DNA from: Capitulum mitella
Taxonomy: Eukaryota > Arthropoda > Thecostraca > Pollicipedomorpha > Pollicipedidae
DNA: 64,000 nucleotides
NCBI GenBank assembly: GCA_030062745.1
Contig: CP099846.1
Location: 20,328,621 to 20,392,620, forward strand
Direction: 5' to 3'
Shown here one piece after another: positions 19,302 through 55,366 of this stretch (position 1 is its first letter; each line of letters opens with the position of its first letter). Both the position numbers and the translations under genes were made by a program. The notes under the pieces are model-generated. The model saw only the letters and a list, made by a program, of their open reading frames with translations. It made no database searches and had not been told where the DNA came from.

Positions 19302-19893
19302 TTTGTTCAGGCAGTGACCGGCAAGTCCGACTCTGTTCAGGCAGTGGCTGGCAGGTCCGGCTCTGTTCAGGCAGTGAACGGTAGGTCCGACTCTGTTCAG
19401 GCAGTGGCTGGCAGGTCCGGCTCTGTTCAGGCAGTGAACGGTAGGTCCGACTCTGTTCAGGCAGTGGCTGGCAGGTCCGACTCTGTTCAGGCAGTGACCG
19501 GCAGATCCGGCTCTGTTCAGGCAGTGACCGGCAGGTCCGGCTCTGGTCAGGCAGTGACTGGCAGGTCCAGCTCTGTTCAGGCAGTGACCGGCAGGTCCGG
19601 CTCTGTTCAGGCAGTGACCGGCAGATCCGGCTCTGTTCAGGCAGTGACCGGCAGGTCCGGCTCTGTTCAGGCAGTGACCGGTAGGTCCGGCTCTGTTCAG
19701 GCAGTGACCGGCAGGTCCAGCTCTGTTCAGGCAGTGACCGGTAGGTCCGGCTCTGTTCAGGCAGTGACCGGCGGGTCCAGCTCTGTTCAGGCAGTGACCG
19801 GTAGGTCCGGGTCTGGTCAGGCAGTGGCCGGCAGGTCCGGCTCTGTTCAGGCAGTGACTGGCAGGTCCGGCTCTGTTCAGGCAGTGGCTGGGA
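19302..19893 (-). repeat. 30-bp minisatellite starting at the CEMIP-like stop codon, 20 copies
   Basis: About twenty 30-bp units (plus-strand core CTCTGTTCAGGCAGTG) run without gaps. On the minus strand each unit contains ACTGCCTGA, and the first is the end of the CEMIP-like frame (CCA GCC ACT GCC TGA). The unit length is a multiple of three, so other frames stay open on both strands and simulate repetitive proteins. These are not taken as genes. Units differ mainly by A/G and C/T changes (GACCGG, GAACGG, GGCTGG). Confidence 0.9.
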
Positions 19894-22800
19894 GATGCGG
19901 GGTGCTCAGTCCTCCAGCGGCGTCCAGGGGCGCTGTCCTGTAGGTGGGGTAGGCGCGCTCTGAACAGTCGCCGTCCTCGTTGCTGGCCGGCAGCAGGACT
20001 CGGACCGTCAGGCAGCCGGCCGGCTGGCCCTCCATGCCCGGACACTCGTCCATTGTGTCGGCCTTGCGGACGTACGGCGAGCTGAAGCGGAAGAAGAGCA
20101 CGCCTACTTCCGAGTCGTAGAAGTAGCGCACGTCAGTCCCGGCTTTCTGCAGTGCAGACAACGACGGCACCGGCACGGCGTTCAGCTGCAGAGGTCGGCT
20201 TGACGCGGCGTCCGATGCAGATGCCAACCGTCTGCGCCGCTTGCGCCTCCACGCCGGCCATGCGGATCTTGAAGTGGCGCGGCACGGTCGTGTTGAAGTG
20301 CAGGATATAGGACTCCTGCGAGTTGAGGGCGTAGCTGATCTGGTAGTTGTCACGGCCGAACTGGGCGCTACCATCGTCCCGTGTCAGGAACGTGTGGAGC
20401 GGCCGCGTGGCCGCCGACTCCCACGAAAGGAAGAATAGCTTGGTGAACAGCGCCGGGCACACGTACAGGTTCCACTGCGGGATGGGCGCGCAGCGCGCGT
20501 TCAGGTGGATCGGGTACGGCTTGACAACGGTGGAGCCGGGATAGGTGGTGATCGAGCCGTCGTGATCACGGATCACGTTCTGGATGCTGCCTGGTAGGTC
20601 TTCGAAGCCGCGTCCCTCGCTCGCGTCGAACAGCCGATTGCCCTCCGCTGGGTCGTCGAAGCGGAACTTGGCTGCCGTCACGCCGTTCGCCGGCGAACTG
20701 TAGTCCCGGTTGCGTCGTTTCAGGCCGATGGCGCCGGCCGGCCGCACGACGTTGCTGGCGAACCCGTCGAAGGTGACGTTCTCCACCGAGACGGTAGCGT
20801 CGTAGAAGATGAAGCCGATGATGGGCAGAGCGTTGTTGATGCCGTCCATGCGGATCTGTCGGTCCCACCAGATGCGCGTGCCGTTTAGCAGCGTGATCCA
20901 GCCCTCCGGCGCGCCCTTGTTGGCAGTTTCGCCGACGATTGTCGAGTCCTGGAGCCGTTTGACGCCCGTGCCGGCCCGCGCGAAGGTCATGCCATCAACG
21001 CTCTCGGCGATCCCGAAGTTTTTCGCGACGACGCTGGTGCCGCTAATCCACGCCGACCTCGCGTTCTTGAAGCCAGTGAAGCTGTCAAAGGTGACGGTGA
21101 CCTGCTTGCTGGTCTCGTCCAGAGGGTCCTCGCGCGGGTTGTAGTTGAAGCCGCCTCGGACTCGGCCCTCCGGTGTGAGGATGCCCTCGAAGAGCAGGCC
21201 GGTCCGGGCGTTCGAGTGCGCCACGTTGCTGACGAACGGGCCGAGCGGCGTGCGCAGCGCCTCGTTCTCGGTCATGAGCTCCAGCGCCGCCGACGGCCCG
21301 ATCGGTCGCCGCGGGAACACGTACCAGAAGCCGTGCCCCTCCGAGCCGCCGGCCACGTTGCCCTGGACGGCGGTGTCCGGGTTGGTGATCCAGAAGGTGG
21401 ACGGGTCCAGCCGGTCGGTGGGCGTGAGTCCCGTGCGGCGCGTGCTGAAGCCCAGGTTGCCCCGGAGCACGGTGCGCTTCTCACCGCCGTCCTCCAGGAA
21501 GAAGCAGTGGCCGAAGTGGTCGAAGGCCATGTTGTCCTCGACCAGTAGGCCGCTGGTGCCGTGGATGGTCACGCAGCGCGCGAACGTGTGATGGATGGCG
21601 TTCGAGACCACGTAGGCCTGCTCAGCGAGAGAGTCCACGTCGCCACACATGTGGAAATGGACCGGGTACGAGCCGAGCACCGAGTTCTGCCCCATGTGGA
21701 AGATCTCGGCATTGGCGATCCGCGCCGTCTGGAAACCAGCCAGCACCTTGATCTGGCCGCCGAATGTGTCGAAGCTGTGGACGTCGCAGTTGTTGTCGCC
21801 GTAGCAGTCAGCCTCCATGCGGCCGTGGATGCGGACGTTGCGGTCCAGCAGGCCGACTTCGGCGGCCATGTTGACGCCATCGGTGGTCTCGCCCCAGTGC
21901 GTGTGCCGGACCGGCCCGGCCACGCGCAGCTGATCGGCGGTGCACGCGGCGCACTCGAGCACCGTCAGCTCCTCAGCCTGCTTCCAGTCGTAGTCGGTGG
22001 ACGCCACCACCACTTTGTCTCCGGCGCGCCAGCCGCTCACGTCGCCCGTCACGGAGAGCACCGCGTTCAGGTCGGGTGCGCCCCCGGCCGGGTACGACAT
22101 CATGTCCACCTCGTACGGCCAGTGGTGGGCCAGCTGCGTCACCGACTGCACCGCGAACTCGGCGCCGCCGATCCGCCGCACCAGGCGTGACGTCATCGAC
22201 TTGTCGCCGACGACGTGGCCCAGCTCCTCGACGCTGTCCCGTGGGCGTCCGACGTGGCATATGGCCGCCCAGGCCACCGTCCGGCCGGCGGTCAGCTCGC
22301 GCAGGCGGCTGCGCCGGGCGCCGCCGTGGCAGGCCAGCTCGAACGCCAGCGCTACGAGCTCTGGCTGCTGGCCGTCGTCCAGCTGGAAGTCCCGCTGCAG
22401 GACGAGCAGCAGCACGCTGCCGCGCAAGCGGGCTAGCTCGGCGAACTGGCCGGCGCGTCGCAACGGGCCGAGGAAGCGCACCATCTGGCCGTCGGCCGAG
22501 AACTGGTAGCCGATGACGCCGCGGTGCGAGTCTTGCGCGTGCCGCGACTGCCGATGGTCGTAGATGGCGTTGGCAGTCACCTGCTGGCGCGGCGTGAGCG
22601 GCAGGGTGGCGGTGAGTCGGGCCCAGGCGCGCCGCGGCTCGCCGTGCACCTCGAGCCGGCCCTGGTCGACCACCAGTGCCTTCAGCAGGGTGGCACCGCC
22701 GGCCTCACCGCCGGCCGTCTCGCCCTTCCTGCCGAGCAGCTCCAGCTCGGCGCGGCCGGCGAACGGGCAGTCCTCGGCGCCGATCCACAGCTCGCCGTTG

Positions 22801-22955
22801 ACCAGCACGAACTCGGCGGCCAGCTTGGCCAGCGCAGCGGCCGGGTCGAACACCAGCCGGCCGCCGGCGGCGACCGTCACCGACGCCAGGTCCGGCGTGG
22901 CCACGTCCAGCAGGATCGCGTCGCTGATCACCACGGCCTCCCCCGGCGCGGGCAC
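19877..22955 (-). CDS. CEMIP/TMEM2-like protein (G8, GG and beta-helix domains), large 3' exon with frame break
   Basis: The minus-strand frame from 22955 to about 20200 codes for a G8 domain at the N-terminus (PAPGEAVVI, VTVAAGGRLVF, LVNGELWIG), then GRLEVHG, a FAM3-like GG module (FAELARLRGSVLL to RTVAWAAICHVGRP), and a long parallel beta-helix region with CYGDNNCDVHSFDTFGGQ, NAEIFHMGQNS and YPVHFHMCGDV. This order is that of CEMIP and TMEM2 (CEMIP2), extracellular proteins that bind or degrade hyaluronan. The exon probably begins after the acceptor GGCTTCAG (22963-22956), so upstream exons with signal or anchor sequence are not identified. The first frame stops at 20133. The family's C-terminal end (DVRYFYDSEVGVLFFRF) continues in a second frame from about 20210 to a stop at 19877, so one indel near 20195-20235 is needed. 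It is either an assembly error or a damaged gene. Enzyme activity cannot be asserted. Confidence 0.85.
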
Positions 22956-22960
22956 CTGAA

Positions 22961-23226
22961 GCCAGCGCGCCACGGTCAGTGTCCAGACAGGGCAGGGAGC
23001 CAGCGCGCCACGGTCAGTGTCCAGACAGGGCAGGGAGCCAGCGCGCCACGGTCAGTGTCCAGACAGGGCAGGGAGCCAGCGCGCGACGGTCAGTGTCCAG
23101 ACAGGGCAGGGAGCCAGCGCGCGACGGTCAGTGTCCAGACAGGGCAGGGAGCCAGCGCGCCGCGGTCAGTGTCCAGACAGGGCAGGGAGCCAGCGCGCCA
23201 CGGTCAGTGTCCAGACAGGGCAGGGA
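22961..23226 (-). repeat. 38-bp minisatellite abutting the CEMIP-like exon acceptor
   Basis: Nearly seven 38-bp units start at about 22971 and end at 23226. On the minus strand each carries CACTGACCGTGGCGCGCTGG. The exon-proximal unit is the very end of the intron, continuing to TTCAG at 22956. Each unit therefore repeats a CTGAC branch-point-like phrase. Variants differ by one base (CCACGG, CGACGG, CCGCGG). Confidence 0.85.
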
Positions 23227-26200
23227 AAAAGAATCGAGGCCATTCAAGTGGGAAATTAGCTGGAATGGGACGCCGGAGCTCAGCTGCGTCCGAAGAGGGT
23301 GGCGGATGTAAAAATCTACATCAATGGGGGTCAGATTTATGCTAATGGGCCCTTAGGCTAAAAAGTATAATCGACGCCTCGGTTTGGTGGCTGATGGTTG
23401 AATGCTCACCTCATTTATTTATTGCTTTTTGCCTGAGAAGACAGCGAATCATCTTTGCATTTCCGTTATACTGAGAGCGATTCTGCCGGTAAACCACTTG
23501 CCTTCCACATTAAACTGATGAGTTGGTTACCGTTTTCTTACCGCGGCTGACAACCTCTTCGCCTTCTCCTTGCTGCATTTGACAGTTTGCGCACCGTTTC
23601 CTTACTACACATGAAGACTGACATGTTGCACGCCGTCTCATTACCTGTCTGACAGGCTGTACAGTGTGCACCGTCCCTTCCTGGTTCTGACAGGTTGTAC
23701 ACTGTTCCCTCACAGGAACATAACGCCAGAACGCCATCTCCTTAGGACGTCTGACATGCTTCAAGCCGTCTCCTTGCTGCGTCTGAGAGGTTATTCACCG
23801 CTCCATTAGCACGTTTGGCGAGTTGTAAACCGTCTCCAAACAACGTCAGACTATCCGACTCTACGTCATCTCCCTACTGTCGCTGACTGGAACTCGGAAC
23901 TCAGAACAGCGTCTCCCTACACCATCGCACTGACAGAATGTCGCCTTACCAATCGTGTGGTCCAGGAAGAAGGTCTGCTCCACCTTTTCAACGCGGCATC
24001 TTCGTGCGGGCAGACCGCCAGACATCGCACCGCCACCGCCGCCAGTGCCAGACAACGCAAAACCGCGTACCGCATACTTCTTCGCGCCCAGCTCGTATCT
24101 CTCCAGCGCCCTACGCGGGACTCTATTTATATGGCCGGGGTGTTGAGGGGTTGCGCCAGCCGTCGCGGCTGTGGCCGAGGTGAGGACACCTGTCCGATTT
24201 GCGCCCGTCACGGCGGGCGGTGTCGGTCCGGCCGTCCAGGTGGCTGCCGGTGCCGGGCCTCGCGCGCAGACGGCCGTCATCAAAACACGCCGGCACGGCT
24301 ATTGTTCTCTGCCGCCGCCGCGATTGTTGCTTTCTGTCCAGCTTGCGTTACACGGTGTTGCAGAATCCTGCGCGCGACAAGTGTCGCAGGCGATCGGTTT
24401 TTGCGTGGCCTTCCGCGTTGTATTTCCTAGTGAGTGTTCTCAGTTATGCGTCATCGATTTTTTTCTCGCCGGGAAACATCTCTACTGCTACCAGAACCGT
24501 TCGTGTGACCTTCAGGTTTGCTGGTCTCAGCAGCTGACAGACACACTGGGGAGACTGGCGTGTGTCGCGAGGCTATTTGCTGCTCCGAGAGGGCTGTTCT
24601 TGCGCTGCCACCTAGTCCCGCGCAGGACGCAGCCGCTGTTCACGAGAGATTCCTTTGGTGAGTGGTTTCCTAGTGATAACGGAACAATTATACACTACTC
24701 TTGCGACTGGCATCTTGTCAACGGCGGTCAGCCATCACAAACCCATCGGCACATGCATACGGCACACACAGCGCTGACTTGAGTCGATTACTGCTCACAC
24801 TACCCGTGGCGAGCGCGGTCAAAGAGGCCACAAAAGGCTTTGTGAACAACTTGCTGAGTGACGTCACCGTCCGGCATGCCGGCCACAGGGTCGCAGCCAG
24901 CCCACACGAGTTTGCTCACTGACGTCACGTCACGCTGTATGTCACACCGGACGTCGTGGTGCGTGCGCACACTTCCTCATGGGCACGGGTCCAACGCACA
25001 CGCTGTGATCTAAGCGTTCTACGCCGGTATCAGTCAAATTTTGTTACTCACGTGACGCATGGTGCGATAAGGGAGCATCCACAGACTACGTAACGGTCGA
25101 AGAGAGGACAGTTGCTGCCCAAGTGCTCAACCATTGCGTAACCACGGCGTCACGCAGTGGTTGAGAAAGAGTAATGAAGCCCCTGTCAGCCATATTCAGC
25201 TTCATGCCATACATTCTTCGGACACATCACGCAAAATGATACTGGATTTTAAAACACTCAGCGACCACGATGGGATACGGAATCATTTACACACCACTAC
25301 GTAGTGACCACTAAAACCGGCTGACTAGTGCACACCCTTTCGTAACAGCGCTATTGCGGTAAATGTTTTTGTTTTTCAACGCGAGGCCAAAGTACACCGC
25401 CGCACACTCCGTCGGAAGCCCTGACGGAGCCTGTGGCGTCGTACTTGAAACGTCCGCTGCCCCGCCCAGGTACAACATCGGGAAGCTGCAGACATTCAGA
25501 CGTGGCGGGCTCAGCATGGCCCGACTGTGCGGTTCGAACAAGCCGACCTGCCGGACTTCCAGACTTTCTGTATGCTCATTTTTGTGCTATACGGCGGGAA
25601 TGGAAAATGTGAATATACCGGCCGGAATGCAGAAAGCCAGGGAACGCCTCGAGTAAAGGAAAGGTCACCAGTCTGCCCCGAACCTTCGTTTAAACAAGAA
25701 ATTAGATGCTTTTCCGACCAATGTGTTGTAAACTAAAATGATATGTGAGAGGGAAGGGAATAAGCGGAGAATTTACGGGTTTTAGGTCACAGACATACGA
25801 GTACCTTTCCTTAGTTGTGCATCTTACCCAGTTCATTGACGCAGGGGTGTTAATAGTCCCGGTCCTCCGTGGATGCCCCTTAGCATATGTATGAATAAAA
25901 AAGAGGTAAGCATATAGAGTGCAAAGTGGGTGCGACTAGACTATCAGCATATACACCCGCCTCGTTGGCAAACTGATGCCAGTTTTCAAAGTGTCGTTAG
26001 GAGCGACGAGAATGACAGAGAATGAATGTTTCAGGAGGGACGTAAGAGGAGTTACGGAGATTACAACTTAGAAATAGAACATGAAAGCATGTGATGCGTG
26101 TTGCCTAGACGTTCCGTGCCTTTTTTCTTCAGCTTGTTTTGTTGGAGGGCAATGCGGGTATCTAGAAGTGCTCCAGGTTCGCTAATTTCATGTCATCGTC

Positions 26201-28006
26201 ATATGTGTTGGTACCAGAGGCGGCGACACTGACGTGGGGACGCGCTGGCCACAACCTTCAGAGTGTGAGGAACTGTTCACCACAACCTTGGAGAGAGCTT
26301 ATTTTTGGTACGAAGGCGCATTCTGGCGAGGAGGGTAAATGCTCGAAATCGCTTACAAATAGCGTTTGCTACCAAAACTGAGAAAAGGCAAGTGTGCCGA
26401 AGACCAGATTCACTTCATATTTTGTCATGCCGCGGTGCCTGGCGCAGCAGGCGTGCTTATCGTGCAGACAGCTGTTTCCGCTGTTCTGATTTGTTGCACA
26501 GCGCAAATCCCCACAAACGGAAGCGCCTATCGCAGGAACCGACGAACATCATGTGCGTGCGTCGCGTCCATTGTTTGCCGCCTTTCCCTCGGTTCTCAGC
26601 TGCACATATCCGAGCAAGTTGCAGGCGCGCCAGCCCACGGTTGTATACAAAGATAACAGTAAGGACTTGCTTAATATTCTGTATTAATATCATTACAACA
26701 TAAAATGATATTAATATTAATTCCAATAACTAGCTTCATATGGAGCGGTTTTGAGGTTCATATGGTCCATCTGTTCAGTGTCAAGGGATTAGATTATATT
26801 CGCTTATCTATTATATCGATACTTAAGCGATTATATCGATTAGATTCGCTGGCCTGGTGCGCCAAACCCGAGCCGACAGGACCACCACAGAGTGCCTGTT
26901 CTCAAGCGACCGAGGAAACGTTGCGAAATTAGCTACCGTCGATTCCAGAGTAACTGATAGTTTAGTTTATTCCAATCATGATTTGTGGTGATGAGTGGAA
27001 GATGAGTCGGTTTACCCCAACTAAAGCTGTACCAGCTTTGTATGCATGAAAATATGAGTACACTGCCACGAGATGGGCGACCCAGCACATCTTTAGACGT
27101 CAAATCCGACTCTTCATACGAAAAAAGAGAACAACGGCACCTTTGGTCATGCCGACAGTATCAATGTGGACAAGTGAAAATACTTCATCATCTTGTACTG
27201 AAGATAAACACATCGAATGCTCCTGGCTTAAAAAAGAGAATAACCACATTTAGCTAATATACTAAAAGAAGCTAGTGAAATAAAGAGGCACATATAGCTA
27301 ATATCGTAAAGGAACATTCAAAACAGTAACAGACCAGCACTCCATCACGTCATCACCTATGAGGATCACATAGTCTACGTATGGGCATCCCGACAAACAG
27401 TTTAAAAATGATGGCAATAATTGGCAAAATTAACGAATTAATGGGCCATCTGCTTTCGCGCGTAATTGAAACAAAAATCCCTTCAAGCTAAAAATCGGGT
27501 GGTCGAAATCTGGCGAGTTTTTTTATTCCGGGGAGAGGACTGGCCATGCCTGACCCATCTCCCGTCCCCCACGACCAAAGCTGTGGGTCGCTGCCGCTGG
27601 TTGGCATTCACTGTGATGATACGGTGAACGTATATGTCGTCCTCAACCAACCATGTCAGCCTAGGCATCGTCTTGCGGCTACTTTAATGAAGAAAAAACA
27701 TTTTCTTCGGCACGGAAACATCAAGATCGCGACCACGATCATCATCGCATGCTATTTACTTTTTTAATCTTTCGAGTTACAGATGACGTTCGAAAGATTC
27801 TTTTGAGCTGCCGGGCAATAAAATCGAACTGGTGTCTAGTTTTGACTCTTGGTATTGTCTGGGAGATGCTGACTTCCCCTCGGGGATGTGCTCAACAATC
27901 GATCCAACTTCCAGTTCTGAGCAAACAACTAGTCATTGCGAACAAAGAGCTGTTATATTTTTTTACATTTCCCTGAGGCAAAACGCGTTGAAGAAAACGT
28001 TCTAGG
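23227..28006. other. Gene-free stretch: degenerate 50-bp-class repeats and a CpG-rich block
   Basis: From about 23515 to 23850 phrases such as CTGACAGGTTGTACAC and CGTCTCCTTA recur at loose intervals, a decayed tandem array. From about 23990 to 24660 CpG density is high, and TGACGTCA (CRE palindrome) occurs near 24919. This could be the promoter side of the minus-strand CEMIP-like gene, but no upstream exon could be supported. From 25000 to 28006 nothing is recognised. Confidence 0.35.
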
Positions 28007-28208: not shown

Positions 28209-28279
<71 letters not shown>

Positions 28280-34172: not shown

Positions 34173-34527
34173 CGGCAATCCTTTACAAGCGCACGCCATA
34201 AACCAAGCACACTGGATGACACGTATACGGCGCGCGTTGCAAAAGGAGACGTCAGCTGTTGCAAGAAACAACAACATTATGCACTGGAGCTCCAGGTCGT
34301 AGATCACCTACTATTCGCTCTTGTTTTACACAGTAGGTTAGGTTAGGTTAGGTTAGGTTAGGTTAGGTTAGGTTAGATTAGGTTAGCGAATAGTAGGTGA
34401 TCCACGACCTGGAGCTCCGGTGCATAATGTTGTTGTTTCTTGCAACAGCTGACGTCTCCTTTTGCCACGCGCGCCGTATATGTGCCATCCAGTGTGCTTG
34501 GTTTATGGCGCACGCTTCTAAAGGATT
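34173..34527. repeat. Inverted repeat (foldback) with a telomere-like core
   Basis: The left arm (about 34173-34318) and right arm (34386-34527, resuming for about 20 bp after the Tigger element at 36366) are near-perfect reverse complements. Both include CCTGGAGCTCC, TGTTGTTTCTTGCAACAGC and GGTTTATGGCG. The 67-bp spacer is mostly (TTAGG)n. The arms translate to similar 40-residue peptides on opposite strands, a by-product of the palindrome. Confidence 0.85.
34333..34385 (+). repeat. (TTAGG)n tract, about 10 units
   Basis: Almost perfect TTAGG units with one GATTA variant, placed exactly in the loop between the two inverted arms. The motif matches the arthropod telomere repeat. Confidence 0.9.
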
Positions 34528-34528
34528 A

Positions 34529-38074: not shown

Positions 38075-38082
38075 TCTCGGGG

Positions 38083-40520: not shown

Positions 40521-40527
40521 TTATTAT

Positions 40528-41833: not shown

Positions 41834-44800
41834 ATGGAGCCGACGGACACGGATGATGATATCGACATCCGCGGCGATCCTTCGTCTCTGCCGCCGACGC
41901 TGTACGTGCTGGAGTTTGCTGCAGGCGTGCCGGCCGCCACTGTCGACTGGTACATCAGCCGCGTGCAGGGCCGCCGGCGCACGGGCGGCGCCGAGCTGCT
42001 GGTCAGCGCCCAGCCCCAGCTCCAGGGCAAGGTGTGTCTGAAGTCAGCAGCTCCAGACCAGGGTAAAACATATCTAGGACAGTCACTCCAGGCCATCGTG
42101 TGTCTAGGTCTGCAGCTCTGGGTAAGCTATGTGCCAGTGGATTCATGGCAGTATATAATTCAGCAGCTGCCATTTTGAGGTGAGGGTCATTGGTACCAGG
42201 ATAGTGGGCATCTACATAGGCTGACAGCTGCAGGGCAAGCATAGATCAGCAGCCACAGGACAGTTTGTAGGTAAGCAACTGCATGCAAGTTGCCTCTGTA
42301 GCTCAGCAGCTCTGCTACAAGATCTATGGCTGATGATGCAGCTTCAAAATGTACCACATATTCTGACCTGTGCACTCCATGTGTAACATGAGCAGGTATG
42401 TCAGGTATCATGCAGGAGTCTAGAAGTGTTCCTCCAGTAATATCTGACTGTAGAGCATTAGAGCATAAAGCACAAAACATTACCATGTGTTGGTTCTGAA
42501 CTGCCCATTTTGGCATCGATGTTAGGGAATGTAAACGCGTCATGTAATGCCACTTCCCTGGTCACATGCTTGTTTCTCGATGCACAAGTCCGGGCCTCGA
42601 TGGAATTGCATGCACTGTAGTGCCGACCAGCACGGTTCATTCTCTGAACATGGCCGACCCGGTGGTGTCGGCAGGGCCTGGTGCTGCACTTGACCGCCTC
42701 GCGGATCAAGCTGCTCGAGACGGCCGAGCGCATGGAGCTGCGCAAGAAGGACCGCGACGGCTTCCTCCGGGACTTCACCTGCGCCGAGCTGGACGAGTTC
42801 CTGGGCGAGGCCGGCGTCGACGGCCTGCTGACCATGTGCGAGAAGCAGCGGATCGTGCTGCACGAGCTGGAGCACATTCGCGCGCGCAGCAGCGAGGACC
42901 GCCTGCCCGGCTACCCGTCCGTGCGGCTGTACCCCGGCCAGAGCGTCAGTGAGTGCCGAGCGACGCTGAGGGGCCGGCCACAAAACGCTTCGGCCCGGTT
43001 GTTGTTGAATGCAGTTAGGCGAAGTTACGAGGTCTCGGGGGCTTTTTCAGCTCGTGCTAATAGTGCGCTAGTGATGGGGACGCGCTCATATTGCGTATGA
43101 AATTTGCGTATGGAAGGCCATGGCAATGGCAGTTCATGAACACACAGGTCTTTTTGTAGCTGAATGAGCCCACAACTGTTTCTTGTATTTCGGAGGTCTT
43201 GATTTGCACGCTCATTTAACTGATGGCTCGAAATATTTCCGCGAGCCTGTGTCAGGTAAACGTCCGATGAATCCGCAGAACTTGACACTTTGTCTACCGT
43301 TCAGCGTCAGACCGGAACAGTTGTCTGTTCCGGGTCAGGCATCAACTGTTGATCATGTGTTTCTGCGTCCAGCTCGCCTGCTGCTGCAGGAGAAGATGAT
43401 TGTCCAGTTGTTCCCCACGCACGACCCTGAGGAGCTGGACCGGCTGGGCAAGTCGTGGTACGCCGCGCCTGTTTCAGCGACAGCCTTTCGGTGAGCGGCA
43501 CCGGACGACGGAGCCGGCTCCGTCGTCCGGGGTCTCTGCGCGGAGTTACTGCTTTTGAATGTCATAACTGTTTTTATTACGCTTGTCATGGCCATTACAC
43601 TACCGAAACGCTGTTGAGAGAAAGAAAATCAGCTCATCAAAATCAGAAATAAAAAAAGAAGTAAGGAACATGACATGTTCCTTAATGCGAAATTTCATTC
43701 TAGCACCGGCTGAAGGGACGGGAAATGACCGTGTCGGGAAGGTTGGACGACTGCAGTCACGATGTCCGCTCCGCCGCAGTATTCGCCGGCTTTGGTCCCC
43801 CTGACCTGGCGCTCCGCTGTTGCAGAGGACATCCGCGCCTACTTCGGTGAGTCGGTGGCGCTCTACTTCTCGTTCCTGGGCTTCTACACGGCGGCGCTGT
43901 GCGGTCCTGCGGCGCTCGGCCTCCTCCAGCTCATCTTCTCCGTGGACACGCTGCACGAGTACGCCCTGTACTCGCTCTTCAACATGCTCTGGGTCACCGT
44001 GTTCCTGGAGGTACGTGACTTACGTCTGTCCCTGTCGCCCGCACGTTGTAGTCTGTGCAGTGTCGTACAGTCTGCCGCCCAGCAGTGTTGGCCCGACCGT
44101 TGTGCGCGTTGAAATCGCGAGTGGTATTGAATGCAGTTGTGACGTCTTTTAAGGCTTGGTGGTTATGCCCATCCATTGTCCAAAATTTCCCATCCAGATT
44201 ATATTGGCGGATTGCATGTTGATTCGAAACCTTTGTCTCTGAAGTTTTTTTCTCACACCGAATGGCACTGCGACTATGCCGCGTGCGTGTTTCCTCTGTA
44301 CGCTGCTCAGGTGGTGTGACCCCCAGCTGGTGACCCATTGTCATCACGCGGACATCATCGACATGATCGCGACATGTGCGTTTCACGTGACGTGTGACAT
44401 CGTCGTCATCATGTGCCCTCCTGACGCACCCCGCCCCCCGCCGCAGGCCTGGAAACGCAAATGCAACGAGCTGGCGTATGTGTGGGGCGTGATGGACAAG
44501 ACGCAGATGTCGTTCCTCGAGCCACGCGCCAACCACCGCGGCGAGATGGTGCGAGACGAAATCACGGGCCGCTACATGCCCTACTACCCGCGCTGGAAGA
44601 CTCTGCTCAAGGTGGGTCGCAGGGACGTCTCCGGGATCGGGGGTCACGGGACTGGTGGAGACTGGGCTCAGGGGAGGGTAGTGGTGCTCTGCCTGCGCTG
44701 GAAGACTATTTAAGGTGGGGTTTGAGTGACCTCTCCGGCGTTCGGTTCCTTCGGGGGAGATAAGGTTAAGGATTGGGCCATCGAATTGCCGTGTTCCTGC

Positions 44801-47800
44801 TGAGCCCCCCATAACGAATGCTTTGTAAGTATCTGGGCCGTTTGTCGAGTTATGTGCTCGCTACAGCGTATCATGTACATTCTGGCCTCAGGGCGCAGCG
44901 CCATCTGTGCTTGTGAACGCGCCGCTGTGTGTCGCTGTTGTTCGCCGCGGCCGCCGCCTCTGACGCGGCTGTTCGTTTGCAGCTGTACACGGTGTCGATC
45001 CCGACGGTGGTGGTCTGCCTGTTCGGCTCCTTCTACCTGATGCTGGTGTCGTTCTGGGTGGAGGAGTACCTCACCCTGCACCGGGACCAGTACGGCGGAA
45101 ACCTGGCCGCGCTGCTCATCATGGTGCCCTCGGTCGTGTACTCGGTGGCTGTGCTCGTCATGAACAAGTACTACAACAAGATGACCACCTTCCTCACCGA
45201 GTGGGGTCAGTCGTGGGCCGTGGCCGGGCTCGTCCTATGCACGGGCGTTGCGGGTGAAGGAAGGCATTTGTTTGAGATGTGGTGAATAGCTCGGTGCAAA
45301 AGTAACGTTATGTTTTGGCAGTCCGTCACGGAGCGTTATCGCATTAACGGGGTAGAAAATGTGCGGGGAAATCCAGATGGTCAGCTGTCTTTGGAGCACT
45401 GAGAAAAAGTCGTATTTGTGTCATGATGGTGCATAAATAGGGTGATAGGTGGGATTGCTGTGATTGCATTGCCATTTACCAGGGCATTCTTTCGCAGTCG
45501 ATTTGTTTATGCACCATTTGTTACCTGTTGACAGATGAATCACCGCACCCAGAAACAGTTCGACTATTATCGTGTGATTAAGCTGGCGCTGTTTGAGTTC
45601 GTCAACAGCTTCATGTCACTTCTACACTTAAGCAGTCGATTTGTTTATGCACCATTTGTTCCCTATTGACAGAGAATCACCGCACCCAGAAACAGTTCGA
45701 CTATTATCGTGTGATTAAGCTGGCGCTGTTTGAGTTCGTCAACAGCTTCATGTCTCTCTTCTACATCGCGTTCTACGTCCAGGACTTGGAAATGCTGCGA
45801 GGCGTAAGTAGGATGTGTAAAGAGGGAAAATGCTCTGCACTGCGCGTAAAAAAACCATTTCATTGGGCTTTCTTATTGGAAATTGTGGGCAGTTGTGCGA
45901 GCCGTTTTCGAAAACGTGGCCTTTTGCCCGAAGTTTACTCATTTATACGTAGTTACAGTTTTGATGCATTCTCTCGTGTTGTGGACGCGGTGAGCGCCAC
46001 AGAACAGATTATTTAATGGACGGTCGGAATTACGGGGAATCGAAAAGTTCTCTGTGTAATGGACTCCGGTAATCTTGTGAACGTTTATTTTGCTAAGTTC
46101 ACGGTCTCCGCATATGCCAGATAGTGACTGAATTGGTCGCTTGGTCTTTCCCGGCCACTTGACACTAATCACCACCTGCTGTTTAGTCTTAGGCCACCAC
46201 ATTGTATTGTAAAGGTTCGGTTAAATTGTATCATTTTTCATTTGCAAGCCATGTAGGCATGGTGGCTGTTAATGACATGAGCTGGTGAACTCCATTAAAG
46301 GCAACAGGCATGTCGGTGACCCTAAATCATGGTGTTTCAGCAACTGGCCGTTATGCTGATCATCCAGCAGCTGATCAACAACTTCCAGGAGGCCCTGCTG
46401 CCCATCGTTATTCGCCGGACCTACACGAAGGCAAGTTCTGGTTACAGGCGCTCCGTCGGAGACGACTTGACCATGACCTTGATGATCGTGGTGCTCTTTC
46501 GAGACCGACATGAGGTCGGAGGGCGCATTTTGTTTGGGCCAGCCTTGGAGAGCAGCGTGCTGTTGATGTGTCTGATGGGTTGTTTCCCTTCTGCTGCTGT
46601 CTCAGAGAGGCCTGATAATGAGTTGCGTCTGTGTTTTGTGCGCTGGTTACCGTGCATCTTTTGTTTCGTGCGTAATATTATGTCATGATGTGCTGTAACT
46701 TGACAACATAGTTAGGTGCTAATTGTGGTCGGGAGGATGTTTCTTTTTTTTGTAATTAACACTCGCTGGACGGGATGGATTTTCACTCGCACCGACGACG
46801 AGGGGGGAGGTAGGCACCCTTCTTGCCATTTAGCCCTTAATTGAACTGGCGCTGGTCAAAAAACAATCGGTAACTGTGTGTCCAAGGAATCCAACGGTAC
46901 CCCGATCGATCTAGCCACATCAACCAGAGACGTTTCAGGCCAGGTTAGACTTTATGTTTGGAAACTATAAGTCGATTTTTCGGAGTTAAAAGTGACACGT
47001 TTGGGGCCGTAGGCATAAAATCGCATCCTTTATCGTACCCAGTGCCAACCATTAACATAGGAACGTTCTCAGGTCAAAAGGGGTCATCTTAGGCCATTGA
47101 CCTCATTTGGCTTTGAAAAGATCATGCATCTATGCAGACTGACCTGTGCGCATGTGGACTACCACGCTGAATCGATTTCGTGGCCATCATATGCCGTTTA
47201 TGCATACCTGTTGCCCTAAAACAGTAAAAGAAACTGACACTTGGCATAAAAATCCTTCTGCAAGCCTTCAGCAGTGACCTCGTAATTCGCTGACCTGAGA
47301 TCACCTGGCATCATTCTTTTTCAAAGCATGCGCTATTAACGTGTCGTCAACTATGCTGAATTTCACGGCGCTGTCGTGCTCCGTATTACCGTGGTCCCGG
47401 AATCTGCTTGGGGGAGGGGTGGCATCCCCCTCGTCTGGCGATGGCTCATTTTTGATACAGCCGGGATTGGGAACCATCAGCTTTACGATATTGCTCAGAC
47501 TACACGTCAGCTGGTTTGTGTTGGCCAGGTCCAGGAGAAGGTGGTCACCAAGCTGATGGAGCACAAGCTGACCCGGCAGCTGTTCGAGAGCCGCGGCCTG
47601 GACGCCGTGGACGCCGACGACGCCCGAGTCCGCGTCAAGACGCTGGAGCCGGACGACCCGCGCGTCCAGCAGGTCAACGAACAGCTGCAGCTCGAGCCCT
47701 ACCCGGTACGTGTTAGCAGCTGCAGCTGGAGTCGTACTCGGTAGGTGTCGAGCAGCTGCGGTCGGAGCCGTACCCGGCACGTGTTGGGTAGCAGCAGCTC

Positions 47801-50800
47801 GACCTGTACCCGATACGTGTTAAGCAACGACAGCCGGAGCCCTACTCGGTAGGTGCCTGGCAGCTGCAGCTGGAGCCGTGTCCGGTACGTGCCTGGCAGT
47901 TACAGCCGGAGCCCTACTCGGTAGGTGCCTGGCAGCTGCAGCTGGAGCCGTGTCCGGTACGTGCCTGGCAGCTACAGCCGGAGCCCTACTCGGTAGGTGC
48001 CTGGCAGCTGCAGCTGGAGCCGTGTCCGGTACGTGCCTGGCAGCTACAGCTGGGGCCGTATCCGGTACGTGCCGGGCAGCCGGCAGTGAGGAGGTCTGCT
48101 GCTGCTCGACCACCGTCAGCACTTGTGCTGGCCAGGGGCCCATCGATAGACGTCGCTCGTTATGACAATAAACAACCTTCTTCATGCCAGGAGAAGTTTG
48201 TGTGTACCCACAAAGCATACATATTAACATCAGACTCGGCGTTTCAGCCATGGGCCATCTTCAGGAGATGGCTATGGCTCACTCCTAAAGATGGCGTATG
48301 TTTGAAACGTCAGGTTAATGTTAATATATATGTTTTGCGTGTAAACCAAGCTTGTCCTGACATACAAGAAGGTTGTTCATTGCTTCAGTTCCATCCAAGG
48401 CCCAGGGATCCATAAAGACCGTTTTATTAAGTTGCGTCACTCGTGAGCTTTGTGATGTAGATCCTGCGACAATGGCTGGCCACTAGGGACGTGCTAAGGT
48501 CCTTACATCTTGTAAAGGTGGTTGGTGTGCGGCACGCGAGGGGTTTCCACAGGGATGACCTTTCCCATGTAGCGGTGCTACGCTGTATGTCGATGCGTGC
48601 TCTGAATCGGTAAGCTGAGCGTTGGCCATGGCGTCGTGGTCCTGACGTAGCGTTGACCGGCATATTCGTTGCACAAGGCTACGAGAGACTCAACGCACGC
48701 ATTGATAGGGCGTGGGGCAAAATTTCCCTCTCCTAGTTTTTTCCGCTTACCTTTCGCTGTAATAAAGTGAGAGCGCCGAAATTCTGTCATCTTCTGATGA
48801 ACTCTCACTGTATCTTTCGCCGCTTAGAATTGCAAAATTGGTTTGTAACTTTTGTCACTGCAGTCCGGCAAAATCGGGAGGCCGGTCGCGCGGCTGATCT
48901 TTTGTCAGCGGGGACGGCCGCAGGCGTGACGGGCTGGAGGACAGACACTGTATTGCATATGCAATAGGTGCTGCCGGGCAGCCATCTGCAAGACGTGAAG
49001 TGTTGCCTGTGCGGTAAATTCACAGTCCAAAGGTTCAGGCAGTCTGGATCAGGTCTGTTGAGATATTCATCGGATCTCAGCGAAACGTTGTGGGGAGCTA
49101 ATCTATTGGATTAATTTATCCACCCTGAAGCGCAAGTTAATCAGGCCAGGCTAATCGAGGTCATCCGAGATCAGGTACTATAAATGCAGCAAATGTAGTA
49201 AATAGCTCATACGGGAATGTTGTTGGGACTGACAGCATGACGAACACAGGTGCCATAAAGCAAAACATAACAGGTACGCTATGTTAGGTCCATTGAGGTC
49301 ACCTGAGGCCAATTAGTGACGATGCAACATTCTTTCCTGTACTTCTGCCCTATGATCTGGAGAACACTTCTGTGCGACTGCATTTTGTTGGCGTCGGCTG
49401 ATCTCTTATGAGCTCAGATGACCTGTGTACTTCACTAGACTGACAAGGGCCATTTCGTTACCAGTGAAATGCCTTGGACGCATTACTAGCGAGGCCTTCT
49501 TTGTTGCCGTTTGCATCATTATTTTCCCTTTGTGCATTCGCAGTGCAGTAGCATAGTTATCGATCTGTTCCAGTATTTTACATCCGAAGAATTGCAAGCC
49601 TGAACACCACACGCACCCTTGATGTTGTTCGCTGTAGGCACTGAACTGTGCAAAAACGCGTGGAAAATAGGTCTAAAAATGAAAACATTGCTCCCGGAAT
49701 AGTCACTTGGAGGAAGGAATTGTAGGTTGACGCATTTCAAATGCAATTATATAAAATTGAAGAATGAGCCAATTTGTGGCGAAAATGTCATGGTGTATTG
49801 TGTAGTGGTTGCGAAGCTATTAGCCTCCAGAAAACGTCACGGCCGGGCTGGGTCGGTCCGCTCAGTTTGATTTTTTTCTGGTAGTTGAAATAAGACTCGC
49901 CCGGCCTTCGGCCTCGCTCGTAGTAGGGGTATCGGACCAACTAACAGTCTAACGGACTAACTAACTAAAATTCGTACTGACAACTCGCCAGATTGTTTTA
50001 TGCTTGATTTTTGACAGAATACAGCGTTTTGAAATATTGACCTAGGCTGACTTCGTTTTACCGGACCGGACACACTCTTTGCGATATGGACGTTCGTCAT
50101 ACGAAACACGTTTGAACAAAATTTGTTTGCAATCGATTCAGAAGGTCTGGAGGAAGAAAAGGGTGCTACTGATTCTTGTACGGTTGAGCTCGTGTGACCT
50201 CGATGGACTTGATATAGGTGATAAAGTGTCTGAGAGTTGTCGGATCAAGACTTCCTACGAAATTTCGATTTTGACGGTTGCTGACGACGGTTTTGCTGTT
50301 TTTTTTTTTCGCGTTTTCTTGATATCCATGGATATACCTGTCTTGGGAGATGGCCGATAGTGCGCACTGTGTGTTACTGTGTCATCAGAGGTACGTATAG
50401 ACCATAGTTTCACACAAGGTCATCAGAGGTCAAACTGATAAAAGTACGATGATTAAATGTGTTGTCATTGTACGTCGTTTTACCAGTTGGGACAGCATTT
50501 GAATATTTGCTGGTGCAAACACGAATTTTAGAGGCATGTGATGACATATTATCGTGTTTATTGTATGGGCCCCATTAGGCGTACCCAAAACTAGCATGTA
50601 ATTGAATCTGCGTTATTTGACTTAGCTCGACGTTTACCACCATCTTCCTCACGTATATGTGTATTGGGGTCCTACCTTACTTTTTGCGTATCGTGGGTGT
50701 TCAGTGATTTGTAGTCTCATTTTTCACGCAAAGAAAAAATAGGCCACAATTGGTGAAATCTTGACCTTGTATGCACCCTGTGACCTAAGGTGCGATGTCA

Positions 50801-53800
50801 ACGTTCAGAAATGGGACATGCCCAGGGTGGCATCTTTGCGGGTAGTCGTTTGCAGTTTGAATCAGGCGAATGGGTTCGTTGGATACGCAGTTGCTGAGTG
50901 GAGCGTCCAACGCCCCACAGGGTGGCAAATTACCACAGGAGCCGCCGGGTTAAGGCACGCCCAGAGTGGCAAGAGTCGTGTTTGGCAGAAATGTCACCAT
51001 TATATGTGGGACCAAGAATGTGCAGGAAGGTATTTTGACCCTCCGGCAGCAACTGACCCAATTTTCTGTGAGTCGTGTAGGACAGATACGGGAGCACCCC
51101 TGTGGACCTGATCCTGGGTGGCGGCTAGGGAAAAGGTTTTGAGAAATAAACAGCAGCAACGTCGAAACGATCGTCACATTTCAGCTGCGCGTCGCTCGTA
51201 AGTGGAGGATCGTATGTAGGCGCGGTCGCCGCTGTTACTGTATGTACTGGGTTTTCCCAGGCCCCAGTAGGCGGGCTCTGGGCCATGCCGTCCCGGTCGC
51301 AGCTGGGGGAGGACTCTTCACCTGCTGTGCACTCAGCCATCACCATACCATACTTGTGCTTATCACTCAGACTAGCCTCACCTCTGTAACTCACACCGGC
51401 CCCATCAGTCATCACTCAGACCAGCCTCATCGTTCACCAGTCAAAACAGCCTCATCACTCGTCACTCGGACCCGCCTCAGTAACAGTCACTCAGACTGGG
51501 CTCATCATTTGTCATTAAGACCAGTATCGGAGGCCGGCCGGCCCGGTGTCGGCTCTGGTGCTGGCCTACAGTGTTGCTCGGGTCCACGCGCCGGGTGCGT
51601 GGCTCGGACCGGAAATTGGCTCTGTCTTCACGCCCGGGGTTCTTTGAGAGGCTCAGACCGGGGCCAGATTGCATGCGGCGGTCCGTGAAGGCAGAGATTT
51701 CATCGGTGCTCTGGGCTGTCTGCCCTCCCCATTCCCCTGGCGCCATAGTCACCAGACAGCTCCGTCTGGAGGTCGTGGCGATTTTTCCATTCGGCGTAGT
51801 GGGGTGCGATTGCCAAATATGGCCACGGGTGGAACGGTGGACGTTTTTGCGCCTTGTAGCATGTTGAAAAAGGACGAGCGTGTCTTTTACGGGCGCCGTT
51901 TGAAGGAAAGTTCGTCGTTGCATGCGGCTTTTTGCGCTGATACATGCTGTCGATCATTGGACGAGAGCCGGCCGCCGGGCCGGTGAAGCGGTGGAGTTAC
52001 CGACCGGTACTGGCCATTAGACCGGCCGGCTCTGGCCAAACGGGCTTATCGCCGGACGGCGTGTTTGTCATGTTTCAGGGCGTTTTTGAGGATATGGCAG
52101 TTAACGATGTCACTGCCTTCGGTCCGGCAGATGTAAATTATTGAGTTACTTCGAAACTTTATTTGTTTTGTGTTAGAAAAACAACGGCTGTCCGTCGCGA
52201 TTGCCTTTTATGCAGTTTAAAAAAGATGCTCCATTTTTTTAGTGAAGTGCGACTTGCTATGCGCAAAAAACAGTCATATAAAATGCGACCGTTACGCCAT
52301 TGTCACGCAACATCGAGCGACGTGATTGCCATGTGCACACTGTTGTTTGGCTTGATCTGCTGGTGGTGGCACTTGCCGTAACTACATACTTCAAATGCTC
52401 TCTAAACGCAGATCATTTCCTGCCTTTTTTAATGAAGTCAGAAAACATTGTTAAGTTTGTTGACACATAAAACCATAACACTGGTGCGAACTACGAACGG
52501 GGTTTTGAAGACGGTCAGATTTAAATTTAAACGGCTCATTGCTCCAGATGTTCATAAGATAATGCTGTCTTTTGCGCACTAGCTGTCAGACAGTGTCGTC
52601 TATGTGTTTCATACTATCTGCATGATATTGGCAATGAAGAATTATTTATATGCATGTACGCACGCTACACACGCACATGCATATGTATTCAATCCCAGGG
52701 AAACATGGTCCTGATGTTGATTTCGCGCATCTGATTCGGTTGGTTATTGGGGCTTAGGGGCGCACCGACTGCACAAGGTCATTCGGCGCCCACACGCATC
52801 TGATTCACACGCTACTGATCTCTCAGTATACGTAGTTGTCCAGGTTCTCAAGCGGGCTAATCTCAGCTTACCACGATGTCCTCACCAAGCCAATATTCCC
52901 GATGTCCCGTGCCACAGACCGAATGTTATCAGCGATTGGTATTTCTAAAGTGACGCAGGTCGTTCCCATTCCTTTCCGTATCCCATAGCGGTCAGCAGGA
53001 ACTAGAGATGTGCCTTTTTGGCCCGCACACGGTGTGGGGCGCCGTCAGCTGCTGGAGTCGGCATCAGTCGAGTGTGTCGAGAACTGAGGCAAGAACGAGG
53101 CAATAAACTGTGCTTCTGGGACCGGCATGTGCCTTTTCCTTCACGGTTGTCTGTTTGTCGGGTGATTTGTGGATTACCGTTTGGCTGTTTTGGAGTTTTT
53201 ATTACGTCTAGGGTCTGAAAATCGTGGCGAAGTGTTTGTATCATATTGAACGAGAATTTGAATTACGATGGCGAAGTGCAGCATTGGTAATGACGCTCCA
53301 GCCTAATGGCACCAGAACATGCGAATAATTCAGAAGTGCTATGCTTTGGGCACCGAAAAGCAACAAATGGGCTATGCGCATTCGTTGCCATTTTCGCACC
53401 CGTAAACGTGATTGGCCCGTTCTTGCGTGCCACTAGCCGGCGTATCGCCGTTTCAGGACACTTCGGACGACTATCTGGAGATGTTCGTCCAGTTCGGATA
53501 CGTGTTCCTGTTCTCGTCCGTGTTCCCGATGGCGGCATTCTGGGCCGTCTTCAACAACCTGCTCGAGATCCGCGCCGACGCCTTCAAGCTCTGCAAGGTG
53601 TACCAGCGGCCGCCGGCCAAGAGCGTGCGCAACATCGGGGCCTGGATGGTGAGTGGGCGGCGACCGAGCTGCAGCCTGGACTGGACCGTGGACTTGCCGG
53701 TGACGAGTTTGCACAAGTCTGTTTTGGGATCCTCACTGAGCGCCGTGCCTGTCCCGTTTGAGTTGTGAGCTCGGCAGTCAGCGCCTTGTCCGTCCTGTTT

Positions 53801-55366
53801 GAGTTGTGAGCCTCCCATTCAGCGCCGTGCATGTCCGGTTTGAGCTGTGAGCCCTCCCGTCAGCGTCGCACCTGTGCTGTTCGAGTCATGAGCTCGCCAG
53901 TCAGCGTCGTGCCTGTCCTGTTTCAGCCGGCGTTCGAGGTGCTCGGCTTCGTGGCCGTGTTCACCAACTGCGCGCTGCTCTGCATGTCGCCCACCCTGCG
54001 CTCCTTGGCGCCTGGCCTCAGCGCCGTCGAGTGGGTGGTGGTGTTCGTGCTGCTGGAGCACACCCTGCTGGCGCTCAAGCTGACCCTCACCCAGGTGGTG
54101 CCCAACGTGCCCTACTGGATCCGCAAGGCGGTGGCCCAGCACGAGTACCGCGTCCGGCAGGAGCTGCACAGGAAGGTGGGTCTGCCCGGACGCCGCGGCC
54201 CCCGGGGTACGGACCTGACGTGCGCTGGACGCAGTGGAAAAAGAAATCGCCTCGGATCCGCGCGTTGTGCTTTTTTGCACTGGTTTGCTGGTTGTGCTAA
54301 GACTAAGATTTTCTGGTCTACGTCTGTGATAGGATATGCCCAGTCTGGTGCGCATTTCGTGACGAAATAATATGGTGCAGTTATGCCGATTTGCCGTTGA
54401 ACCTGTGTAGTCACCTTGTTTGTTTTGGTAGGTTTTGTTCAGGCTTACTCCCTTTCAGAAACCTGTGTAGTGATGTGCGAGTTTGTATTGCCGTATTAGC
54501 ACTGCCCCCGGCTAGTCTACAGCCGTCGCAATACGTGCCCAGTCATTCTGACATCGGTCGATGCGCCTGGGCTAACAGACAGGCTGCGGCTGCTAATGGG
54601 CCTGATGGGACGATAGTGGTGATGGTTTCCGAACTAGTGCGTGGCGTTAGGCTGGTCTGATAGGATGACGCTGGTGCTGTGGGCATCGTGGGGCGCTGCC
54701 TAATGGGCTGTAAAGTGCTGGCGTGCAGAGCGGCTGATGATGTGCTTTCTCGTCTCATGCGTTTTATATTTGTGTGAGGAAAGGATGCTGACTTCCAGTT
54801 GTAACCACAAGATCACTGCAGCGCTCGCAGCCAGGGCATCGAGGCGTCTTGTTGGGTTATAGATGAGCCCTGGCCTCGTGCTGTGGTTCTCCAGGCTGGT
54901 GGTCTCGGACCTTGTCCAGTGTCCATGTGGCGGCCTCTGAGTACCATTCGGCAGTCCACCCAGTCGGTTCCGGCGACGGCGGCACGTGCTGCGGCCGTCG
55001 GACAGGCCGATGGGAGGGGGGACATTACTGACGCTGGCCAGCTCTGTGTTGTTGGAGTCGGACAGTCCGTCCGACGACCTAACGCCGCTGCATGGTCGCC
55101 GAGGTAGGCGCGGTGGAAGCCGTCACCTGTCCTGTGTGGTCCGCAGACGTTCCGGTCCGCGCGGCCCGCGCGGTGCCGCCGTCGCGCGCACGTCCGCTGT
55201 TGAGCCGGTTGTGTGGGTCGCGGGGTGTGGTGACCGGCGCGGTTTGTCGTTGCAGCGCCGGCGGGAGACGCGCCACCGGCTGTCGCGCCGCTTCTCGTCC
55301 AAGGTGCCCGCCCAGCGGCCGGCCAGCTTCCAGCCGGAGACGACGGTCCGCTTCCGGAACCATTAG
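41834..55366 (+). CDS. ANO10: Anoctamin-10 (TMEM16K), 12 coding exons
   Basis: Exons: 41834-42031, 42675-42948, 43373-43490, 43826-44010, 44447-44611, 44983-45205, 45673-45803, 46341-46430, 47535-47705, 53457-53648, 53927-54175, 55256-55366. They total about 701 codons (mammalian ANO10 is 660). All introns are GT-AG except intron 8 (GC-AG), and phases agree at every junction except 3/4. Exon 2 matches the cytosolic N-domain (KQRIVLHELEHIRA, LPGYPSVRLYPG). Exon 4 starts EDIRAYFGES and holds the first two membrane helices; exons 6-8, 10 and 11 hold the rest. Exon 10 has the anoctamin signature NNLLEIRADAFKLC, whose acidic residues bind calcium in the family; exon 11 adds LEHTLLALK. ANO10 is an endoplasmic-reticulum lipid scramblase. 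Start: first ATG of exon 1, though an acceptor-like CTTCTCAG at 41830 allows an upstream 5' UTR exon. Exon 3 needs a one-base correction near 43462-43465, otherwise the frame ends at 43492. Confidence 0.93.
42012..42330 (+). repeat. Degenerate copies of the ANO10 exon 1 donor region
   Basis: The exon end and donor, CAGCTCCAGGGCAAG|GTGTG, is followed by weaker echoes: CAGCTCCAGACCAGGGTAAA, CACTCCAGGCCATCGTGTG, CAGCTCTGGGTAAGC and CAGCTGCAGGGCAAGC. Spacing is irregular (about 35-120 bp), so this is a decayed array at best. Confidence 0.4.
43501..43530. other. Perfect 30-bp palindrome just after the exon 3 donor
   Basis: The half-site CCGGACGACGGAGCC is followed directly by its exact reverse complement, with no spacer. 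It begins 10 bp after the exon 3 donor (GT at 43491-43492). In RNA it could form a very stable 15-bp stem at the 5' end of intron 3, limited only by the loop. Confidence 0.9.
44694..44745 (+). repeat. Duplicate of ANO10 exon 5 donor junction, 104 bp downstream
   Basis: The sequence GCGCTGGAAGACT..T..AAGGTGGGT followed by G..G.CCTCTCCGG repeats the end of exon 5 and its donor (about 44590-44640). It is a single tandem copy with several substitutions. Confidence 0.65.
45494..45629 (+). pseudogene. Tandem partial duplicate of ANO10 exon 7 with its acceptor
   Basis: This 136-bp copy is repeated at 45632-45767 (period 138). It includes the intron end (GCAGTCGATTTGTTTATGCA to TTGACAG) and the first about 90 bp of exon 7. 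An extra T right after the acceptor (ATGAATCAC versus AGAATCAC) shifts the frame: if spliced to exon 6 it reads into a TAA within 16 codons. The exon body ends before the donor. It is a decoy or poison exon by sequence, with no evidence of use. Confidence 0.85.
47682..48076 (+). repeat. 36-bp minisatellite made from the ANO10 exon 9 donor junction, 11 units
   Basis: The last 24 bp of exon 9 plus its donor (CAGCTGCAGCTC, then GAGCCCTACCCG|GTACGTG) form the first unit. Ten more units follow at 47717, 47753, 47792, 47825, 47861, 47897, 47933, 47969, 48005 and 48041, of length 33-39 bp, mostly 36. Nearly all keep a donor-like CGGTACGTG or CGGTAGGTG. From 47825 they alternate between two types, giving a 72-bp higher-order period. 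Confidence 0.9.
48165..48383. repeat. Foldback element in ANO10 intron 9
   Basis: The left arm (about 48165-48272) and right arm (about 48283-48383) are about 100-bp imperfect reverse complements. Paired phrases include AACAACCTTCTT/AAGAAGGTTGTT, ATATTAACAT/ATGTTAATAT and GCCATCTTCAGGAG/CTCCTAAAGATGGC. The loop is about 10 bp. No protein is encoded. Confidence 0.8.
48384..53456. other. Remainder of ANO10 intron 9
   Basis: About 5 kb without a recognised exon. It contains a loose about 25-bp tandem of CAGCCTCATCACTCGTCAC type at 51370-51530 and palindromic CCGGCCGG-type patches near 51540 and 51970-52030. Some frames exceed 100 codons but show no motif, and their phases would not suit insertion between exons 9 and 10. 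Confidence 0.45.
53734..53926 (+). repeat. About 41-bp minisatellite ending in the ANO10 exon 11 acceptor, 5 units
   Basis: Units start near 53734, 53775, 53816, 53858 and 53898. Each has GTCAGCG.CGTGCCTGTCC and TGTTTGAG or a variant. The last unit carries the true acceptor CCTGTCCTGTTTCAG at 53912-53926. Earlier units have TTTGAG or TTCGAG at the same place, so they are near-acceptors in tandem. Confidence 0.8.

Follow-up and report, generated by a model that had tools for sequence, protein, structure and literature searches.

Minisatellite-like arrays at exon-intron boundaries in the genome of the arthropod Capitulum mitella

Several genes of the arthropod Capitulum mitella carry tandem arrays in which an exon-intron boundary, together with its splice site, is part of the repeated unit. 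We studied them in a 64,000-nucleotide stretch of contig CP099846.1 (C8:20328621–20392620, referred to as the window) within the 477-Mb, 16-contig genome. The window holds the anoctamin gene ANO10 and, on the minus strand, a CEMIP-like gene. Boundary arrays recur in this genome, because similar structures occur in control genes taken without regard to repeats, most clearly the donor array of locus L024 and the acceptor array of locus L029. By their sequence the arrays match the mirages of amphioxus; the structure therefore already has a name and is now seen in an arthropod. No excess of arrays at junctions was detectable in the control genes. We consider it likely, with a probability of about 0.7, that the arrays are ordinary local minisatellites and tandem duplications that happen to include a boundary, at chance frequency within the power of the tests.

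Arrays of ANO10 and the CEMIP-like gene

Arrays were called by a mechanical self-scan with a threshold score of ≥18, and one block-wise shuffle of the window served as the background. Fifteen arrays in the window reached the threshold, and the best score in the shuffled window was 14. Those at the exon 7 acceptor, the exon 9 donor and the exon 11 acceptor of ANO10 and at the stop codon of the CEMIP-like gene lie on or at a boundary. The array at 22960–23226 only adjoins one, and 10 of the 15 are located away from any listed boundary. The features are collected in Table 1.

Table 1. Gene features and repeats; positions are those of the window unless a locus is named
Feature	Position	Strand	Basis or remarks
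ANO10 gene, 12 exons	41834..55366	+	model built by hand on splice sites and reading frames; Anoctamin Pfam matches; best PDB match Anoctamin-10 5oc9
ANO10 exons 1–6	41834-42031, 42675-42948, 43373-43490, 43826-44010, 44447-44611, 44983-45205	+	
ANO10 exons 7–12	45673-45803, 46341-46430, 47529-47705, 53457-53648, 53927-54175, 55256-55366	+	
Exon 7 acceptor duplication, 137 bp x 1.9, ~97% matching	45494..45757	+	self-scan
Exon 9 donor array, 36/72-bp unit, ~11 copies	47678..48080	+	self-scan
Exon 11 acceptor array, 41 bp x 4.5, in intron 10	53721..53927	+	self-scan
Exon 5 donor region copied downstream in degenerate form; the authentic donor follows 44611	44695..44755	+	gapped alignment
Weak degenerate repeats after exon 1 donor	42020..42130	+	gapped alignment
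Large exon of CEMIP-like gene	20229..22955	-	exon finder; Pfam G8 and CEMIP_beta-hel; PDB 8c6i
38-bp x 7 array, 98% matching, stopping 4 bp short of the CEMIP-like exon on its upstream side	22960..23226	-	self-scan
30-bp x ~19-20 array over end of CEMIP-like open reading frame	19300..19901	-	self-scan
L024 donor array, 35-bp unit	L024:4697-5192		~14 units, 13 with GT
L029 acceptor array, ~131-bp unit			unit with the acceptor and the start of the exon; four acceptors counting the authentic one
L022 acceptor array			copies with weak sites
L030 donor array, 2.3 copies			predicted exon without family support

The gene names of the original prediction, which had been made from the letters of the window, were borne out. 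Exons 4–11 of ANO10 have anoctamin-10 (5oc9) as their top PDB match, with an E value of 1.1e-99. The CEMIP-like gene carries Pfam G8 and CEMIP_beta-hel domains, along with a weak CEMIP_X match just under the cut-off, and matches cell surface hyaluronidase (PDB 8c6i, E 1e-112). The exon ends of ANO10 follow the consensus, except at exon 8, where there is an apparent GC donor at 46430 (AAG/GCAAGT, the slash marking the splice point). Exon 3 makes an out-of-frame junction with exon 4, the exon end reading in another frame (LFQRQPF); the mismatch may be a polymorphism or an assembly error.

Each unit of the exon 9 array is composed of the end of exon 9 and the first ~12 bp of intron 9. Two 36-bp types alternate, giving the array a 72-bp higher order. 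CCG/GTACG is found in 5 of 11 copies, the authentic site included, TCG/GTAGG in 4 of 11, and GT is lost in the remaining 2. Reading through from exon 9 meets a stop codon already in the second array unit (47742–47744).

The unit of the exon 7 duplication takes in ~40 bp from the end of intron 6 together with ~90 bp from the start of exon 7. Its upstream copy has one additional base after the AG, and no donor was seen in this copy. The close match between the copies indicates a recent duplication. The exon 11 array ends at the AG and contains intron-side repeats only, without exon sequence. Its copies read GAG, the functional site being CAG, and are weaker acceptors (best score 4.1 vs 8.2 for the functional site).

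Arrays or duplicates had been claimed at exons 1, 5, 7, 9 and 11 of ANO10. Those at exons 7 and 9 stand, and so does that at exon 11, with the reservation that it stops at the AG. The evidence is weaker at exons 5 and 1, where the copies are degenerate. The exon 5 donor copy gives a gapped alignment of ~59 columns with a score of 26.5, which 6.9% of random window positions reach, and its donor scores 5.1 vs 6.1 for the authentic one. For the exon 1 donor copy, a 34-column match scores 20.5, a value reached by 10.4% of random window positions.

The array claimed across the stop codon of the CEMIP-like gene was confirmed. In the array rows inspected, the TGA stop (19879–19877) recurs in frame and keeps its position within the 30-bp unit. 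The second array of this gene had been described as spanning an acceptor, and this has to be corrected. The acceptor AG is at 22956–22957 and the exon starts at 22955, so that the functional AG is outside the array; the acceptor scan found no other acceptor above its cut-off inside the array. The general statement that units consist of boundary sequence in every case does not hold at this site. The reading frame of the same gene changes at 20186–20228, which may represent either a ~43-bp intron or an assembly indel.

Three arrays, those of exon 9, of exon 7 (window 45480–45820) and at the CEMIP-like acceptor (window 22950–23240), were covered by a DNA search of the 477-Mb genome, a search that skips very common words. 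Each of them gave one genomic match, itself. The three tested arrays are thus local and, as far as the search sees, not inserted elements. A dispersed element, or introner-like elements with similar sequence as introns at many loci, was rejected for these three arrays on the same single matches.

Recurrence and frequency of boundary arrays in control genes

The window itself had been selected as striking. A control was therefore made of 21 loci picked without regard to repeats, consisting of one 9-kb anoctamin stretch and 20 stretches, each 10 kb long, surrounding matches to mitochondrial carriers. Their exons were predicted by a codon-bias exon finder with a cut-off of 12, which called 90 exons with 169 splice junctions. 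When applied to ANO10, the finder placed 6 of the 12 exons exactly at both ends, the others being misplaced, split or missed at one end. It overlapped 52 of the 54 carrier matches, which were also its training set, and it made 47 calls on reversed sequence, 4 of them outside called exons. The control loci contain 41 arrays, spanning 6,900 of 209,000 bases.

The donor array of L024, a locus which we take to be SLC25A33/36-like, repeats the end of a carrier exon with its CAG/GTGAGG donor. Five copies score 7.4–7.9 vs 7.4 for the first donor, and the splice point is presumably authentic, judging from a comparison with the family. At L029 the acceptor copies score 8.2–8.5 vs 8.2 for the authentic site. 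A further acceptor array is present at L022, presumably an SLC25A11-like gene. The claim that splice sequence is multiplied beside the functional site accordingly stands for several junctions, with full-strength sites in some of the arrays; it does not extend to all of them.

Eight control junctions are touched by arrays. Two of them, L019 1449 and L027 3126, belong to repeat-like predicted exons without family support, and the exon at the touched L030 junction likewise lacks such support. The arrays at L023 7846 and L029 3271 reach or adjoin their junctions without visible copies of exon sequence. All 8 were retained in the count.

Assembly artefact, that is, false duplication arising from noisy reads, is scarcely credible as the source of these structures. 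The two apparent frame changes of the window, in ANO10 exon 3 and at 20186–20228 of the CEMIP-like gene, may be residual errors of this kind. Diverged and ordered variants, such as the alternating 36-bp types with their 72-bp higher order, are not made by simple false duplication, and the structure is present at separate loci.

The seeding of arrays on boundaries had been thought non-random, and the control gives this no support. The 8 of 169 junctions touched compare with 6.1 expected (P=0.30), or with 6.02 in a repeat run (P=0.27; 95% interval 0.57–2.62 fold). With zero tolerance the count is 6 vs 5.70 expected. Restricting the test to homology-supported exons gives 4 of 94 vs 3.30 expected (P=0.41), and stricter array cut-offs give P values from 0.24 to 0.76. 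Array coverage in the control shows no peak at junctions, exon bins having 2.3–3.1% and intron bins 4.6–6.8%. Within the ANO10 span alone, 3 of 5 arrays touch a boundary vs 1.80 expected (P=0.23). Gapped self-similarity was also compared between junctions and random non-coding positions with composition matched by shuffled flanks. An excess of ≥5 was found at 15 of 163 junctions and 46 of 514 random positions (Fisher P=0.51), and an excess of 8 at 8 of 163 and 32 of 514 (P=0.79).

Several results weigh against a pure chance frequency. Of the 15 arrays of the window, 5 touch a boundary vs 1.54 expected (P=0.009), a count that took the CEMIP-like exon edge as 22959; with the correct 22955 and the 3-bp tolerance of this count it would become 4 of 15. 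When the window was redone with corrected junctions, 16 arrays and a 5-bp tolerance, 4 of 24 junctions were touched vs 1.47 expected (P=0.075). Window and control pooled give 12 of 193 junctions vs 7.53 expected (P=0.087). Without composition matching, junctions show gapped self-similarity more often than random non-coding positions do, at 20.2% vs 9.3% for a score of 15, 11.0% vs 5.4% for 18, 4.3% vs 3.3% for 25 and 3.1% (5 of 163 junctions) vs 1.6% for 40. Even with matching, the distribution is slightly shifted (Mann-Whitney P=0.017; medians 0.89 for junctions vs 0.39). Splice sites, moreover, are not kept in all copies: the ANO10 exon 11 copies are weak, and at L022 a single copy is above a score of 2, at 2.7 vs 5.3 for the authentic site. 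The control is small and its exons are predicted, and it rules out only an enrichment above ~2.6-fold.

These window, pooled and similarity figures favor the alternative that boundaries are modestly preferred seeds of duplication; shifts in base composition or R-loops at splice sites could be among the causes. We regard this as unlikely, given the control ratio of ~1.3, the near-expected count at homology-supported exons, the lack of a coverage peak at junctions and the absence of an excess of strong similarity once flanks are matched. A mild boundary preference is compatible with the results.

Age of the introns and fate of the extra copies

Tandem duplication of AGGT-containing segments is a model of intron gain (Rogers model), and the original prediction suggested that such events may be frequent and ongoing here. 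Some units do combine exon sequence with a donor, or an AG with exon sequence. Cases have been documented elsewhere, among them potato RdRp, ATP2A1 and fission yeast genes (PMC4974935), and as in these cases the duplicated sequence contains a splice site. The present arrays differ from them in that none runs from donor to acceptor, and in that, of the three ANO10 introns with arrays, two lie at the position and phase of a paralog intron.

Introns were inferred in the control from neighboring predicted exons on the same strand, 60–6000 bp apart (n=68). Arrays joining both ends of an intron were found in 0 of these 68. The donor flank of an intron resembles its own acceptor flank no more than flanks of mismatched pairs resemble each other (P=0.37). 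ANO10 intron 6 follows TGG G in EW(G)ENHRTQ, and the intron of the anoctamin locus L034 follows TGG G in VW(G)EMHRTQ, with equal phase. ANO10 intron 10 (NIGAWM/PAFEV) corresponds to an intron of the anoctamin locus L035 (NIGTWQ/DAMEV), both in phase 0. ANO10 intron 9 is two codons away from the L035 intron, with equal phase. Introns 6 and 10 thus have their position and phase in common with paralogous anoctamins, and parsimony dates at least these two, out of the three ANO10 introns that carry arrays, to before the paralogs separated. Intron gain through AGGT tandem duplication was rejected on the lack of bridging arrays and the paralog positions and phases of introns 6 and 10, and arrays as introns in the making are highly improbable. 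Boundary repeats alone are no evidence of intron gain.

We propose instead that the arrays are by-products of ordinary duplication. Local minisatellites and tandem duplications would arise as often as is usual in this arthropod genome, where their density is fairly high, and a number of them would happen to include an exon-intron boundary. A duplication extending from an exon into the neighboring intron would leave the exon-side copy intact, and the surplus copies would turn into intron sequence. Because the exon-side copy is intact and the extra copies become intron, the protein would be unchanged and the event probably near neutral. Unequal exchange or slippage could later expand two copies into an array of splice sites, while splicing would presumably stay with the exon-side site.

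Alternatively, the multiplied sites could be functional, acting as alternative donors and acceptors or as decoys that tune splicing. The copies at ANO10 exon 9, L024 and L029 equal the authentic sites in strength, as such a role would suggest. We nevertheless hold it to be very doubtful. By simple arithmetic, the use of a single inner copy would shift the frame for the 35-bp unit of L024 and the 131-bp unit of L029, and reading through ANO10 exon 9 meets the stop in the second unit. The amphioxus mirages, too, are reported with undisturbed splicing (PMC3087553). Duplication at ordinary density, with splicing left to the exon-side site, remains our preferred account.

Known boundary repeats, other window features and significance

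Mirages were reportedly first described in Nucl Acids Res 2002;30:2871. They are minisatellite-like duplications of intron-exon boundaries in the amphioxus Adh3 gene and the globin genes BflGb6 and BflGb9, which are reported to leave splicing undisturbed and to be unstable in length (PMC3087553). Mirages are also described in lancelet PGBD5 (PMC3902484). The mirages consist of tandem units of 10–160 bp over a donor or acceptor, with extra copies beside the authentic exon, AG or GT in many but not all copies, and several affected genes per genome; the arrays reported here are alike in each of these respects.

The likeness differs from array to array. The boundary is included in the arrays of ANO10 exons 7 and 9, L024, L029 and L022, whereas the exon 11 array only reaches the AG and the CEMIP-like array at 22960–23226 adjoins its boundary. 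The unit is local for the three arrays searched. AG or GT is often kept in ANO10 exon 9, L024 and L029, weakly in L022 and exon 11, and not in the CEMIP-like array. Unlike the amphioxus mirages, the present ones have an arthropod and not a cephalochordate host, some of them only adjoin a boundary, and they are known from the DNA of one assembly. The term mirage for such arrays outside amphioxus and lancelet was not found in the open papers that the searches reached. No earlier arthropod boundary array was noticed in literature listings, whose coverage leaves out most subscription papers, so that an earlier report is possible.

Related repeats are known from other animals. Human segmental duplications contain internal tandem repeats at exon-intron boundaries, with units averaging ~30 bp (PMC2812944), and the arrays here resemble them as minisatellites with units of about this size at such boundaries. 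The human repeats differ from one recent paralog to another and are able to create novel introns, whereas here the three arrays searched each occur at one locus and two introns are of old date. Duplicated exon copies together with intron minisatellites are described for earthworm metallothionein genes (PMC12783039).

Other repeats and mobile elements occur in the window. A long inverted repeat at 60303–61583, with arms of 249, 110, 78 and 50 nt that are 82–92% complementary, is possibly a hairpin mobile element. An open reading frame of 617 residues at 34397–36250 has DDE_1 and Tc5-type DNA-binding domains, and we take it to be a Tigger/pogo-like transposase. Another transposase reading frame, at 5461–6261, has a Transposase_1 match and is presumably mariner-like. 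TTAGG, the arthropod telomere-type repeat, forms interstitial arrays at 7066–7080 and 34338–34372. Together with a large cuticle-protein family in the genome (627 Chitin_bind_4 candidates, of which 150 were scored and all 150 matched), these arrays point to an arthropod, and an amphioxus origin of the window was rejected on both. Telomere repeats were looked for in the first 2 kb of 4 contigs, one of which starts with N, and were not found there.

The boundary arrays at several arthropod control genes suggest that mirages are a by-product to be expected of genomes rich in minisatellites in general, rather than something peculiar to cephalochordates. L024 with its 13 donors and L029 with its four acceptors are natural experiments on spliceosome preference, be it for the exon-side, the first or the strongest site, and L024 is the locus best suited to the question of splice-site choice. 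More tentatively, and with the odds against it, the genome might be a natural library of competing splice sites of equal strength, in which many genes hold repeated donors or acceptors, perhaps seeded at boundaries at up to 2–3 times chance, and the spliceosome still chooses the exon-side copy. If this were true, the rules of site choice and the onset of new isoforms would be directly measurable.

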